Source of the DNA: a virus
Length of the DNA: 25,569 nucleotides
Virus record (IMG/VR): IMGVR_UViG_3300004369_000130
Coordinates: 1-25,569 of that record
Reading direction: 5' to 3' (one strand)
Shown here piece after piece: positions 18,147-23,765 of this stretch. The notes beneath the pieces are model-generated. The model had not been told where the DNA came from. It saw nothing but the letters and a program-made list of their open reading frames with translations, and did no database searches. The first letter of the stretch is position 1. Each line of letters begins with the position of its first letter. Made by a program: the position numbers and the translations under genes.

Positions 18147-20540
18147 ATGGCTTATTCAGATTTAAACAGTCAAACTAGAGACGGCGATTACTTTATAGTA
18201 GTCAGAGACGGTTTAGATGTTGATACTGATTACCTACTAAGATTTGCATGGGTTTTTAATGATAAAGACAAAGGGGTTAGTCAGCCTTCTAGCATTTATG
18301 AATTTACAACAATTTCTTCAAGCAGGCCCCCCGCAGCTAACATTGTTGCCGAATGGGAGGGCACAACATTAAAGATTAGTTGGGATAAAACAGATACTCG
18401 TGCCAAGCAGTATGTGATATTTCTAACCAATGGTGCAACTACTCAAAGCTGGATTGCGCCGATAGACAACAGCCAGGTTAGACAGACTTGGAAGCTATCT
18501 AAAGAATCTAACAGGGCAAACTTTGGCGGGGTATTTAGAACATCTTTTACTGGAAATCATCAAACAACATATTTAGATGGGTCGAGCGAGTCTGTTGTTT
18601 TTACGGTTCCCAATTACTTAGACGAACTTTGTTCTGTAGCTATAGGAGTTGATGACTGGAAGGTCACTCAATCAATTGATGGTTTTATTGCGACGTGGAA
18701 TCTTAATAGTGTTGATTATCCTACATATAAGTATTCAGAAGTTTTTGTTGAAGATCCAGGTACTCTAGTTTTCAATAAAGAGTATGCTGGAATAGGACCA
18801 GCTGCTATATCTTTATTTTCTTTAGCATCTCACAAAGTAAAAATAAGACATTTTTCTGAAAGCGGATGCAGCACTCCATTTTCCGAAATTAAAGAAGTAA
18901 CTGCTTTTGATTCAATTACTAACGACGTAGTTCCTCCAGTAAATACATTTACTTTAGGAACGGCAGTGGTTGAAGATGATCCAAATGGACTGTTCACGTT
19001 TGATAAAAAAGTGTTGTTTACTTGGACCGAAAACGCATCAACAGATACTGCTGGGTACAGAATTAGGTTTAGGCTTTTTGGTTCTAATGATCCCTATACG
19101 TACATGTCCGTGCCAGGAAAAGAAAAAACATCTACTTATCTGTATGGATTAAAAGGTGGTCAAACCTATGAAATAGGGGTAAGCACCTTTGATGTGTATG
19201 GGAACACAAATGAGACAGATTACAGGACATATCCTTCAATAGTAGCACCAGCAAGCACTGAGTTGCAAGCAGATGTAGCTATTACGGCTGGAGATATGAA
19301 ATTAGGTTATGGAATAGGTGGCAGTAATTCACAAAAAGGACTCTATTTAGGACCAGAAAATTATTGGTATATTCAGGGAAACACAACACTGTCATCTGCT
19401 GCACGAGTTTCAATAGGCGGAACTAATGATAAGTTAATATGGGACGGAAGCAATTTAACTGCTACTGGAACTATAAATGCAAATGCTGGAACATTTACGG
19501 GTGTAGTAAACATAGGCACTGCTTCAGTAAATGGTCAGTTAAATTTATATGCAGGAGCAAACAAATTTGAAGTTGGAAGATTAAAAGACATTAATGGAAA
19601 CTGGCTTAACGAGATAGGAATTCAAGGAACTGATTCTACGGGACAACTATTCCAGTTAGACACCTTAAATGGAGTGAGGGTATTTAAAGGAAGTATTGGC
19701 GGATGGACAATAAATACAAATACAATATCTAAGAATTATACAAGTTTAAATTCAGATGGATCTATTACTGCTGGGTCTTCTGGAGAGTTTACGGTAACTT
19801 CAGCTGGAGCCCTTACTGCTACACAAGCAACAATTAGAGGATCAATTAAAGGGACAAGCGGAGGTTTTGGAACCCTAAGCGAATCAACCGCTGAAATAGA
19901 AAAAGGATGGCTAATAAATGATTCTGGGGACGGGAAACTTAGATCTACTGGCACAGCACCTGGTTTGACTAAGATAGTCTTAGATGGCCACGAAGGGTCT
20001 ATAACAGGCGGAAGGATATACGGAACGACCTTTTATATTGATAACCCAAATGACCCTAGCCCCTCAGATTATATTTCTTCTGACGGAAGCTTTAAATTGG
20101 CAAAAGGCAGAATTGATTATGTGCCAATCTCGGAGACGCTGACAGTAAAAGCAAACTTAGTAGCTTCCAATCTTTATTTAGGCGATGACACACTAGCTAA
20201 TGACTTTATAAAAACAGATGGAAACTTTAGTTTGGGTGCTGGCGCATTAACTGGTTCATCCTCTGCGATAAGTATAAATCTTAATGAAAACGCAGCAGCA
20301 GGCAACACATTCAATGTATATTTCAATGGTATGCCTTCTAGCGATGACGATGGTTGGGCTGGAGATCCAACAATAACACTTAGAGAAACTGATAATAAAT
20401 TAGTTAGAGGAAGAAGACTTATATACGACTCAACTAGAACTGGTGTAACCCTGCCTCCAAATCCAGTTGGGGGGCAATATTTAACTGGAAATGGCTACAA
20501 AGATGTAAAAGCAGGAGATCTGCTTTTAGTTCAACAGTAA
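18147..20540 (+). CDS. Minor tail fibre protein with fibronectin-like and beta-helical regions
   Basis: The product is 797 residues. GGAG (18135-18138) lies 8 bases before the ATG, which is three bases after the previous stop. Residues 1 to about 370 hold fibronectin type III-like units, with GTTLKISWDKTDTRAKQYVI, VLFTWTENASTDTAGYRIRF and GLKGGQTYEIGVSTFDVYG. From residue 375 the sequence becomes Gly/Thr/Ser/Asn-rich with short repeated strands, such as KLIWDGSNLTATGTINANAG and TFTGVVNIGTASVNGQLNLY. Near residue 510 comes GSIGGWTINTNTI. These are typical of trimeric beta-helical fibre shafts. The end is a compact domain, with VTLPPNPVGGQYLTGNGYKD. It is likely a tail-tip fibre for surface contact. 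The exact receptor cannot be read from sequence. Confidence 0.7.
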   Translation: MAYSDLNSQTRDGDYFIVVRDGLDVDTDYLLRFAWVFNDKDKGVSQPSSIYEFTTISSSRPPAANIVAEWEGTTLKISWDKTDTRAKQYVIFLTNGATTQSWIAPIDNSQVRQTWKLSKESNRANFGGVFRTSFTGNHQTTYLDGSSESVVFTVPNYLDELCSVAIGVDDWKVTQSIDGFIATWNLNSVDYPTYKYSEVFVEDPGTLVFNKEYAGIGPAAISLFSLASHKVKIRHFSESGCSTPFSEIKEVTAFDSITNDVVPPVNTFTLGTAVVEDDPNGLFTFDKKVLFTWTENASTDTAGYRIRFRLFGSNDPYTYMSVPGKEKTSTYLYGLKGGQTYEIGVSTFDVYGNTNETDYRTYPSIVAPASTELQADVAITAGDMKLGYGIGGSNSQKGLYLGPENYWYIQGNTTLSSAARVSIGGTNDKLIWDGSNLTATGTINANAGTFTGVVNIGTASVNGQLNLYAGANKFEVGRLKDINGNWLNEIGIQGTDSTGQLFQLDTLNGVRVFKGSIGGWTINTNTISKNYTSLNSDGSITAGSSGEFTVTSAGALTATQATIRGSIKGTSGGFGTLSESTAEIEKGWLINDSGDGKLRSTGTAPGLTKIVLDGHEGSITGGRIYGTTFYIDNPNDPSPSDYISSDGSFKLAKGRIDYVPISETLTVKANLVASNLYLGDDTLANDFIKTDGNFSLGAGALTGSSSAISINLNENAAAGNTFNVYFNGMPSSDDDGWAGDPTITLRETDNKLVRGRRLIYDSTRTGVTLPPNPVGGQYLTGNGYKDVKAGDLLLVQQ

Positions 20541-20549
20541 AGAAGATAA

Positions 20550-23500
20550 ATGCCTATATATAGACTTAACAGTGACGGACAATGGAAAAAGCTGTCTGCC
20601 CTATATAGACTTAATGGTTCATCCATTTGGAAAAAACTATCCGCTGCATATAGATTAAATGGCAGCGGAACATGGAAAAAAATATTTGGATTTCTAGGTC
20701 CCCCTACTCCAAAAGAAAACCCAAAACTTATATTTGTTTCTACAGATTCAAGTACATCTCAAACAGAATGTACTCAGCAAGACAAAATGTATGTTACAAG
20801 AGGCAAATGGAATGAAGACCCAATATCATTTTTAATTAAAATACAAAAGTCTATAATTACAAATTGGGGTGCCCCAACAACATTAATTAGCCAAGAGCTT
20901 GAGTATTTAGAGTATGAGGATTCAGATTATTTAGATCAAGTTCCTGCACTAGTTGCAGATAGACCAACAATAACACTAGCTGACATTAAAAATAAAAGAG
21001 GGTTTAGGGCACAGGTTGCAGTTGGTCAAGAGGCTAATCCAACAGCAGCTGACTACCTAATTGCAACTTCATGGTATCCAAGTGCTACAGGAGTATTCCC
21101 AAGACTTAATTTTGAATTTACTACATACAGCACTGGAGATCAGATAATTGAAGATGAAACAATAAGCATGCCTGAGTTTAAAATATTTGGATTTAAGTGG
21201 AAATACTTAACTTCTTCTGAAGCATCATATCCAGATGGACAGTATTTCCCATCATCTAGAACAGATGAATTTATTGGAAAACAAATAGTTGAACTTACTG
21301 ATTTTTATGGAAACATAATAGGGAGCCTTCAAGATATAGATATATTACCAAATAATCAATATTCTGCATCAATTGTTTATACCCAAGCAATGATAGATTC
21401 TGGTGAAGATTATATAATTAATGTACACTCATTTGCAGAAGACTATTATTATGACCCCACACTTTCTTTACAGGGTCACATAGATGGCCAAAATGAAACT
21501 TCAAGAATAGCATCATTTGTATTTACACCACCAGTGCTTATGGAAGACCCAGAAATTACTATATCTAATAGGACAAAAAGTTCTGTAGATATAGATTGGT
21601 ATTCCCCAGATGCAGAAAGGTATAAGGTTGAATTAATAGATTCAATTACAGGAAACTCTTTGGGGGGATACCCAAAGCTTTCAACTGAAGATGTTACTGG
21701 CAGCCCTTTTGGTTTAACCGAAGATAGACTATATACTGTTTCAGTAACCGCACTTGCTGGAGAAAATGATCAACACAAAAGCGAGAAAATCTCTAAAAGT
21801 TTTAGAACATTAAAGACTGGGATAGCCGCAGAGTTAGGAGTTCCTTACGATATAACTTCAACTGGTTATAAGGTGTATATAGAAAATTGGAACACAATAA
21901 GTTCATTTGATATAACTGTTTCTGCAACATTCGGAACGGCATCAAGGTCTTCTGATGTTATATCTGTTAGCAATGTTCCAGCAAATTCTGACTCATGTTT
22001 AACTGCCACAACTTCTAAAATTGATAATGTAGATTTAACAGCCGTTTCATATGACTTTATAGAATCTTCTCCTGTCTGTGCAGTTATTGGAGGAACTTGG
22101 TATTGCTTAACTTTTGTTCCTGGCGGAGGATGCTGGAAATCCATAGAGCCTTATGATAAATCAAGTAGTGGATCTGGATATGCAATACAGTGCTCACAAA
22201 CAGAACAGTGTTGCCAAACTGTAGTATTAGATTCAAAGGTTTACTCTGCGTGGTCTGCATATGGAAATTGTGTTCAAGGTCAACGTAGCAGAACAAGAAC
22301 CTGGACTCAAATTCAAACAACAACTGCTCAAAATTGTGCTGTGACAATGGTAGAACTTATCGGAAGTGAATACCAATATGATGTCTGCTGCAGTTATACT
22401 TGTACAACTGGCGATAAAACCTTTGGCACACCTGGAGAGTTCAGCTCTTGCGATCCTTTTACTTCTCTAATCACCAGAAGTACGCCCTGGACAGCAATAG
22501 AAACATGCGTGAGCTCACAGACCGACTGCCCAACAACTTACACAACTATTTCTGGAAACGAACAAACTTGGTTGCCCTGCTGTACGGAGAGCACAACTAT
22601 TGGTCCTAAGACTTACTCTGATTGGTCTGCATGGAGCAATTGTGTTCAAGGTGAACGTAGCAGAACAAGAACCTGGACTGCTACACAAACAGTTGAGACA
22701 ACCAGCTGCACAGAAGTTACAACTACAATTAGCGACACTGAATACCAATATACAGGCTGTTGTACTCCTGGATGTACAGATGGTCCTAGGACTTACTCTG
22801 ATTGGTCTGCATGGAGCAATTGTGTTCAAGGTCAACGTAGCAGAACAAGAACCTGGACTGCAACTACAACTTGTATAAATTCAAACTGTGATGTTTTAAG
22901 CGTTAACGTTGGGGAATCAAGTGGAAGTGAATACGAATATACATCCTGTTGCACTGCTGCATGTACAACTGGATCTAAAACCTTTGGCACACCTGGAGAG
23001 TTCGGATCTTGCAATCCTTTTACTTCTCAAATCTGCAGAAATATGCCCTGGACAGCAGTGCAGACATGCCTTACAGCAAGTTGTACAACTACTGTAGAAA
23101 CTATTTCTGGAAACGACCAAACTTGCTTGCCCTGCTGTACGGCGAGCACAACTATTGGTCCTAAGACTTACTCTGATTGGTCTGCATGGAGCAATTGTGT
23201 TCAAGGTCAACGTAGCAGAACAAGAACCTGGACTGCTATACAAACAGTTGAGACAGCCAGCTGCACAACAACTACAACTGAAACAAGTGGTTCTGAATCT
23301 GACTTTACAGGCTGTTGTACTGCTGGATGTACAGATGGTCCTAAGAATTATGGAGCTTGGTCTTCATGGGGAGCATGTAACATGGGAGACCAGTCAAGAG
23401 TAAGAAGCTGGACTGCAATTACAACTTGTATAAATTCAAACTGTGATGTTTTAAACGAATGGCTAACAGAGGGAAATGAATATGAAACCCAAAGTTGCTC

Positions 23501-23765
23501 ATCGGGTGGAACTCCATTCTTCCCACCGTTCTTCCCATTCTTCCCACCGTTCTTCCCATTCTTCCCACCGTTCTTCCCACCATACTTCCCATTCTTCCCA
23601 TTCTTCCCACCGTTCTTCCCACCATACTTCCCAATTAATCCGTTCTTCCCACCGTTCTTCCCACCATTCTTCCCACCGTTCTTCCCACCGTTCTTCCCAT
23701 TCTTCCCACCGTTCTTCCCACCGTTCTTCCCAGGCTTTGGCGGAGGAGGGCAAATTCCCGTTTAA
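20550..23765 (+). CDS. Fibre / adhesin with TSP1-like repeats and a Phe-Pro tail
   Basis: The product is 1071 residues in four parts. Residues 4-48 are three 15-residue repeats (YRLNGS-x-x-WKKLSA). A long beta-rich part follows, with a fibronectin-like unit near 325-425 (ISNRTKSSVDIDWYSPDAER). Residues 560-985 are seven cysteine-rich modules of about 60 residues. Five begin with YSDWSAWSNC or a close variant followed by GQRSRTRTW, the W-x-x-W-x-x-C and R-x-R-x-R pattern of thrombospondin type 1 repeats. Residues 989-1061 contain Phe and Pro with only two Tyr, one Ile and one Asn, and a GFGGGGQIPV end follows. It is the last large gene of the tail module, so a receptor-binding fibre is likely. 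TSP1 modules are chiefly known from animal and parasite adhesins. Partner and topology are unknown. Confidence 0.75.
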   Translation: MPIYRLNSDGQWKKLSALYRLNGSSIWKKLSAAYRLNGSGTWKKIFGFLGPPTPKENPKLIFVSTDSSTSQTECTQQDKMYVTRGKWNEDPISFLIKIQKSIITNWGAPTTLISQELEYLEYEDSDYLDQVPALVADRPTITLADIKNKRGFRAQVAVGQEANPTAADYLIATSWYPSATGVFPRLNFEFTTYSTGDQIIEDETISMPEFKIFGFKWKYLTSSEASYPDGQYFPSSRTDEFIGKQIVELTDFYGNIIGSLQDIDILPNNQYSASIVYTQAMIDSGEDYIINVHSFAEDYYYDPTLSLQGHIDGQNETSRIASFVFTPPVLMEDPEITISNRTKSSVDIDWYSPDAERYKVELIDSITGNSLGGYPKLSTEDVTGSPFGLTEDRLYTVSVTALAGENDQHKSEKISKSFRTLKTGIAAELGVPYDITSTGYKVYIENWNTISSFDITVSATFGTASRSSDVISVSNVPANSDSCLTATTSKIDNVDLTAVSYDFIESSPVCAVIGGTWYCLTFVPGGGCWKSIEPYDKSSSGSGYAIQCSQTEQCCQTVVLDSKVYSAWSAYGNCVQGQRSRTRTWTQIQTTTAQNCAVTMVELIGSEYQYDVCCSYTCTTGDKTFGTPGEFSSCDPFTSLITRSTPWTAIETCVSSQTDCPTTYTTISGNEQTWLPCCTESTTIGPKTYSDWSAWSNCVQGERSRTRTWTATQTVETTSCTEVTTTISDTEYQYTGCCTPGCTDGPRTYSDWSAWSNCVQGQRSRTRTWTATTTCINSNCDVLSVNVGESSGSEYEYTSCCTAACTTGSKTFGTPGEFGSCNPFTSQICRNMPWTAVQTCLTASCTTTVETISGNDQTCLPCCTASTTIGPKTYSDWSAWSNCVQGQRSRTRTWTAIQTVETASCTTTTTETSGSESDFTGCCTAGCTDGPKNYGAWSSWGACNMGDQSRVRSWTAITTCINSNCDVLNEWLTEGNEYETQSCSSGGTPFFPPFFPFFPPFFPFFPPFFPPYFPFFPFFPPFFPPYFPINPFFPPFFPPFFPPFFPPFFPFFPPFFPPFFPGFGGGGQIPV
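20559..20693 (+). repeat. Three tandem 45-base repeats at the fibre N-terminus
   Basis: Each unit encodes Tyr-Arg-Leu-Asn, then Gly/Ser-rich residues, then Trp-Lys-Lys and a short hydrophobic link. The tyrosines are at residues 4, 19 and 34, so the period is exactly 15. The DNA units share AGACTTAA or AGATTAAA cores and a TGGAAAAA block. This lies at the presumed virion-proximal end of the fibre. Confidence 0.8.
22240..23460 (+). repeat. Seven-module TSP1-like repeat region with a duplicated three-module block
   Basis: The key tryptophan of the five clear TSP1-like modules is at residues 568, 692, 752, 877 and 937. Two divergent modules with TFGTPGEFSSC or TFGTPGEFGSC lie near 628 and 815. 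The order is T-v-T-T-v-T-T. The v-T-T block occurs twice, offset by 555-561 bases. Bases 22791-22860 and 23166-23235 are identical, and 22611-22680 differs from them at a single base. Confidence 0.85.
23514..23732 (+). repeat. Phe-Pro coding array of 9- and 12-base units
   Basis: 73 codons are built from TTCTTCCCA and TTCTTCCCACCG (or CCA) units, with two TAC substitutions and one ATTAAT interruption. CCA is always the first proline after a Phe pair, and CCG is nearly always the second. This fixed codon choice shows growth by DNA repeat expansion. The + strand is almost all pyrimidine. Confidence 0.9.

Follow-up and report, generated by a model that had tools for sequence, protein, structure and literature searches.

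Thrombospondin type 1 (TSP1) modules have been studied as adhesion modules of animals and apicomplexan parasites; they usually serve to bind a glycan or protein of the host. Canonical TSP1 is defined by three disulphides inside the module. TSP1 structure depends on disulphides, one animal TSR unfolds on disulphide reduction, and C-mannose helps folding (PMC6954052). In the literature, mainly its open-access part, no account of TSP1 modules in phage tails came to light, and a first-pass annotation of the DNA analysed here knew of no standard phage fibre class built from these modules. This statement needs qualification: other phage contigs have TSP1 modules in their tail or structural genes, and the protein A0A6J5N7M8 of an uncultured Caudovirales (275 aa) is named 'TSP1 repeat (Fragment)'. 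A scan with DNA patterns yielded other virus contigs with the short TSP1 form W-x-x-W-x-x-C-x-x-G, which, like the modules described below, is devoid of the CSxTC cysteine pair. Two of these contigs, L158 and L132, carry three or four copies that match Pfam TSP1_spondin with E values of 1e-44 and 2e-29, respectively; on L132 and on L105 the TSP1 genes adjoin phage virion genes. Canonical TSP1 above the Pfam cut-off was also seen on contigs that have baseplate or tail fibre genes of the T4 type (L043:4839-6950, L061:522-1058), the former with two adjacent TSP1 genes. An 88 kb virus contig, possibly from a virus of eukaryotes, encodes a hydrophobic segment followed by two spondin-type TSP1 modules (L072:2-865, Pfam E 7e-29). 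TSP1 in phages is not unprecedented; for an array with cysteines paired across module junctions we found no description.

The window, i.e. the whole stretch of 25,569 nucleotides analysed here, is a virus record of 25.6 kb with the head-tail gene order of Streptomyces phages (Stanwilliamsviridae). Its major capsid protein is 57–58% identical to theirs, and the run from capsid over tape measure to minor tail genes is the same in phage Bordeaux. By synteny, gene 20550-23765 is part of the tail module and sits directly after the last minor tail gene shared with the Streptomyces phages; the gene upstream of it weakly matches their minor tail proteins (25%). Read from this gene order, 20550-23765 would be a distal tail gene of a siphophage, with a corresponding position in the virion. 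Because its phage relatives are Streptomyces phages, the host is probably an actinobacterium, and the low GC content (34–42%) would suit a streamlined aquatic lineage. The features of the locus are as follows.

18147..20540, + strand: upstream tail gene with fn3-like part; homologous contigs have a related gene in this position
20550..23765, + strand: putative distal tail gene, 1071 aa, carrying the module array (open reading frame; same tail gene order in relatives; homologous contigs)
20550..20699, + strand: N-terminal short repeats YRLN..G.WKKL, three copies (sequence)
21555..21794, + strand: fibronectin type III-like domain, residues 336-415 (Pfam fn3)
21807..22232, + strand: Cys-containing domain preceding the array (sequence, alignment)
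22233..22412, + strand: module 1, TSP1-like
22413..22604, + strand: module 2, variant without Trp-Arg ladder
22605..22784, + strand: module 3, TSP1-like, modelled together with module 4
22785..22973, + strand: module 4, TSP1-like, modelled together with module 3
22974..23159, + strand: module 5, variant in which two additional cysteines, in alignment columns 23 and 58, covary
23160..23339, + strand: module 6, TSP1-like
23340..23510, + strand: module 7, TSP1-like, the last one, without the second Cys of CC and without the late Cys
23511..23762, + strand: Phe-Pro low-complexity tail, residues 988-1071, with the end GFGGGGQIPV (sequence)

A search of metagenomic phages for the same architecture, as proposed by the first-pass annotation, found homologues of this gene in 12–13 IMG/VR contigs of 17 to 117 kb. 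A spurious open reading frame or an assembly artefact is thereby ruled out. The capsid gene was 86–88% identical to that of the window in all three homologous contigs tested. The Stanwilliamsviridae phages share capsid and tail order with the window, but a homologue of 20550-23765 was not found in phage records: a tblastn search against 50,697 records with E up to 10 gave none, which is not a strong negative, as low-complexity regions were filtered out and a query with canonical phage TSP1 came back empty as well. Genome contigs searched for relatives likewise contained none. Two further contigs (L015, L016) matched the DNA pattern but have no such open reading frame.

The N-terminal short repeats, kept in relatives as WRK..GWIKI in the alignment, probably form the attachment end of the protein. 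The fibronectin-like part (E 1.4e-4, 22.5 bits) stays under the curated Pfam cut-off of 25 and exceeds it in the homologue L006. Together with the Phe-Pro tail it flanks the array, in agreement with the first-pass annotation. Most homologues (L001:1825-5520, L006:4941-9014 and others) end differently, namely in a (TIN)n repeat, GGGG, a Hint-like (intein/hedgehog) domain that gives weak Pfam matches, and a final MAHN, whereas in the window and in L012 the protein ends in the Phe-Pro tail and has no Hint domain, GGGG being retained in the window. The same parts also occur in another gene, L128:279-3071, where a single TSP1-like module is flanked by a long PTPT linker on one side and by (TIN)n with a Hint-like domain on the other.

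Between these flanks we find seven tandem modules of 57–64 residues each (residues 562-987, window 22233-23510), consistent with the spacing of about 60 residues given earlier. The first-pass annotation had counted five modules. Five copies of W-x-x-[WY]-x-x-C-x-x-G-x-[RQ]-x-R-x-R indeed start at residues 568, 692, 752, 877 and 937, and the motif did not occur once in 2000 composition shuffles of the array; variants 2 and 5 had gone uncounted. These two retain the cysteines, PWTA and the module length, but the first Trp and most Arg are gone, so that a first strand WxxW(xxW)xxC followed by a second strand RxRxR is present in five of the seven modules. In module 1, Tyr replaces the second Trp; in module 7, Gln replaces the first Arg. 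Homologues have seven modules or, in one group, nine. Cysteine makes up 8.7% of the array compared to 0.18% of the other 6600 residues in the window's structural genes.

Are these modules TSP1? They do not pass as such in Pfam, where the curated cut-offs were not reached by any module (E 0.04–2); the best scores were 14.8 bits for TSP1_spondin (E 0.036, cut-off 41) and 8.9 for TSP_1 (cut-off 21.6). Neither the whole protein nor single modules nor a module profile gave anything above cut-off in sequence searches of Pfam, PHROGs and the PDB. The Pfam check that the first-pass annotation had suggested hence came out negative. Divergence of the modules and loss of the CSxTC cysteine pair account for this. 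With four near-invariant Cys columns (13, 41, 61 and 62 of the module alignment described below), the window modules do not have the scheme of six cysteines in three intramodule disulphides. Since they fall short of both the Pfam cut-off and this scheme, we do not file them as TSP_1 members but regard them as divergent TSP1-related modules.

Profile comparison, in contrast, supports homology to TSP1 statistically, with hhalign scores above all shuffles. Canonical modules aligned with Pfam-confirmed short phage TSP1_spondin modules at 95.4% (P 1.8e-8, score 38.9), and the best of 100 column shuffles scored 17.6. Against canonical TSP1, the match was 81% (P 1.2e-5, score 27.8), with best scores of 21.4 and 19.2 in 60 and 100 column shuffles and of 13.2 for the reversed alignment. 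The latter comparison used 42 canonical modules and 15 canonical TSP1 modules (9 from solved animal proteins, 6 from IMG/VR contigs), and the matches to TSP1 span strands A and B only (22–33 columns). Like the window modules, the phage TSP1_spondin modules (PF19028; L105, L132, L158, L186) have the short W-x-x-W-x-x-C-x-x-G/D without CSxTC, followed by an Arg strand. Being short forms without CSxTC, they therefore bridge the gap between the window modules and TSP1. Unlike the window modules, they score above the Pfam cut-off and have a core of 43 residues in which an N-terminal Cys stands just ahead of the first Trp, but no CC pair of the window type. Animal TSP1 (thrombospondin-1, properdin, F-spondin; PF00090) shares with the window modules WxxWxxC, RxRxR, tandem arrays and the predicted three-strand layout, whereas the window modules lack the CSxTC pair and O-fucose site, probably have inter-module bonds and stay below the Pfam cut-offs.

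An AlphaFold2 model of modules 3 and 4, built on 35 module pairs from homologues, reached a pLDDT of 90.1 and showed long strands B and C and an irregular strand A in each module, i.e. the strand arrangement expected for TSP1. In a Foldseek search of the PDB with this model, the top nine matches were all TSRs, of properdin, thrombospondin-1 and Semaphorin-5A, each of them weak (E ≥0.03). Among viral proteins, the second-best fold match was the A0A6J5N7M8 fragment (Foldseek E 1.9e-3, 29% identity). The best VIA-align rows were likewise TSRs, with a Z of 4.2, where about 4 is in the range of common arrangements. A full-length AlphaFold2 model from seven close sequences was discarded (pLDDT 45).

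These weak structural scores, the sub-threshold Pfam and PDB sequence hits and the different cysteine scheme lacking the CSxTC pair would also fit an unrelated small beta fold that acquired a TSP1-like Trp/Arg/Cys pattern by convergence. We consider this improbable, given that the profile match to the phage TSP1_spondin modules lies far above shuffles, that these modules close the gap in sequence, and that TSRs occupy the top of the structure-match list. Taken together, lines of evidence that are each weak to moderate alone make a TSP1 origin of the modules likely. The TSP1 identity first proposed is thus retained as a relationship, by profile match and strand arrangement, and not as family membership with a Pfam hit and the CSxTC pair.

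We analysed the cysteines in a module alignment of 51 modules and 44 junctions from seven homologous proteins. Each of the 51 modules has Cys in columns 13, 41 and 61. Column 62, the second Cys of the CC pair, is absent from the last module of each of the seven proteins and from no other module. Columns 34 and 66 are optional and unrelated inside one module (7/15/15/14). Across junctions, however, column 66 of module n and column 34 of module n+1 were both present in 22 cases and both absent in the other 22, without exception, and no such link appeared at shifts of −2, −1, 0 or +2. At junction 1-2, the window has the link and the other proteins have none, both cysteines being changed. Because the seven proteins share ancestry, these junctions do not count as 44 independent events; they represent three distinct patterns with chances of 1/15, 1/20 and 1/56 each. 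Columns 23 and 58 are Cys only jointly, in module 5 of the window and module 7 of L006, which are corresponding modules of two otherwise distant homologues.

Because a late Cys of one module and a Cys of the next are gained and lost jointly, disulphides probably clamp neighbouring modules together, as far as covariation in the sequences can tell. The first-pass annotation had suggested that the conserved cysteines could form disulphides; covariation supports this, but with a pattern of bonds between modules and not only within them. In our model, column 66 would bond column 34 of the following module wherever both exist. Column 62 is kept only where a next module follows, which suggests a forward bond; it may reach into module n+1 at every junction, its partner most simply being column 41 by inference. 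Columns 13 and 61 would be left as an intramodule bond. The chain of bonds might start in the domain preceding the array, since its CC at residues 554-555 keeps the same distance to module 1 as each module's CC to the next module. Phage proteins are made in the reducing cytoplasm, and the cysteines could instead hold a metal or stay reduced without any disulphides. This reading we regard as very unlikely: the optional cysteines come and go in pairs, as disulphides do, and disulphide-linked tails or tail disulphide networks have a precedent in phage Milano (PMC10811340). For clamping bonds, we assume that the cysteines would be oxidised after the virion has left the cytoplasm. A covalently zippered TSP1-like rod would result, with one to two disulphides per neighbour pair formed only after virion exit, a stiff tail adhesin whose whole array is exchanged among related phages; we see the chances of this full scheme as about evenly balanced.

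How the array might act is indicated by sister phages. In two contigs, L145 and L153, the neighbouring genes are related to those of the window (39–60% identity over comparable tail genes), and the protein has a 31% identical N-terminal part, fn3 and the Phe-Pro tail, but other TSP1-type modules, which match canonical TSP1 at 96.7% (P 4.6e-10). The sister arrays (L145, L153, L196) resemble that of the window in gene place, N-terminal repeats, fn3, Phe-Pro tail and W-x-x-W-x-x-C-x-x-G-x-R-x-R-x-R, and differ from it in their units, which are about 90 residues long and contain R-x-C and WYC motifs. These proteins have up to 72 Cys each, and their Phe-Pro tail is as in L012. Array replacement at the same locus, read from these sequences, fits an exchangeable adhesin.

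We hence consider it fairly probable that the gene encodes a distal siphophage tail adhesin in which TSP1-related modules form a disulphide-clamped rod that binds the host surface. The adhesin role is proposed because of the place of the gene, the conservation of its N-terminal part and the replacement of the array in sister phages. Each module would be a thin three-stranded layer held by a Trp-Arg ladder. The rigid, covalently clamped rod with its repeated Arg-rich faces would bind a host-surface glycan or protein, by analogy to what these modules usually do, and its end would be capped by the Phe-Pro tail or, in relatives, by the Hint-like domain. The main rival to this binding role is a rigid spacer or stalk, with the host bound by the gene end or by another tail gene. 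Repeat arrays often serve as spacers, the module number varies between seven and nine, a Phe-Pro tail or Hint-like domain makes up the end, and inter-module disulphides would stiffen the rod. In sister phages, though, the array is swapped and the gene end stays alike, as would be the case for a binding part; a spacer could be replaced too, yet on balance we think a mere spacer rather unlikely.

An array that comes from a reducing cytoplasm and from a structural protein set otherwise nearly free of Cys offers a clean test of module folding and bond timing. The paired gain and loss of cysteines between neighbours provides a concrete, testable bond map, and whole-array replacement at one locus is a pointer to the host-recognition part in uncultured phages. 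Should the zippered rod hold true, it would be a TSR fold in which inter-module bonds replace some of the canonical intramodule bonds, and which folds without the C-mannose and the oxidising ER on which animal TSRs rely.

Phe-Pro tails of the type FFPPFFP are very frequent in virus contigs, with at least 120 stretches and at least 117 open reading frames containing five or more FFP (loci L205-L323). They are followed by Hint-like, S74-like or Cys-rich ends, or by nothing.
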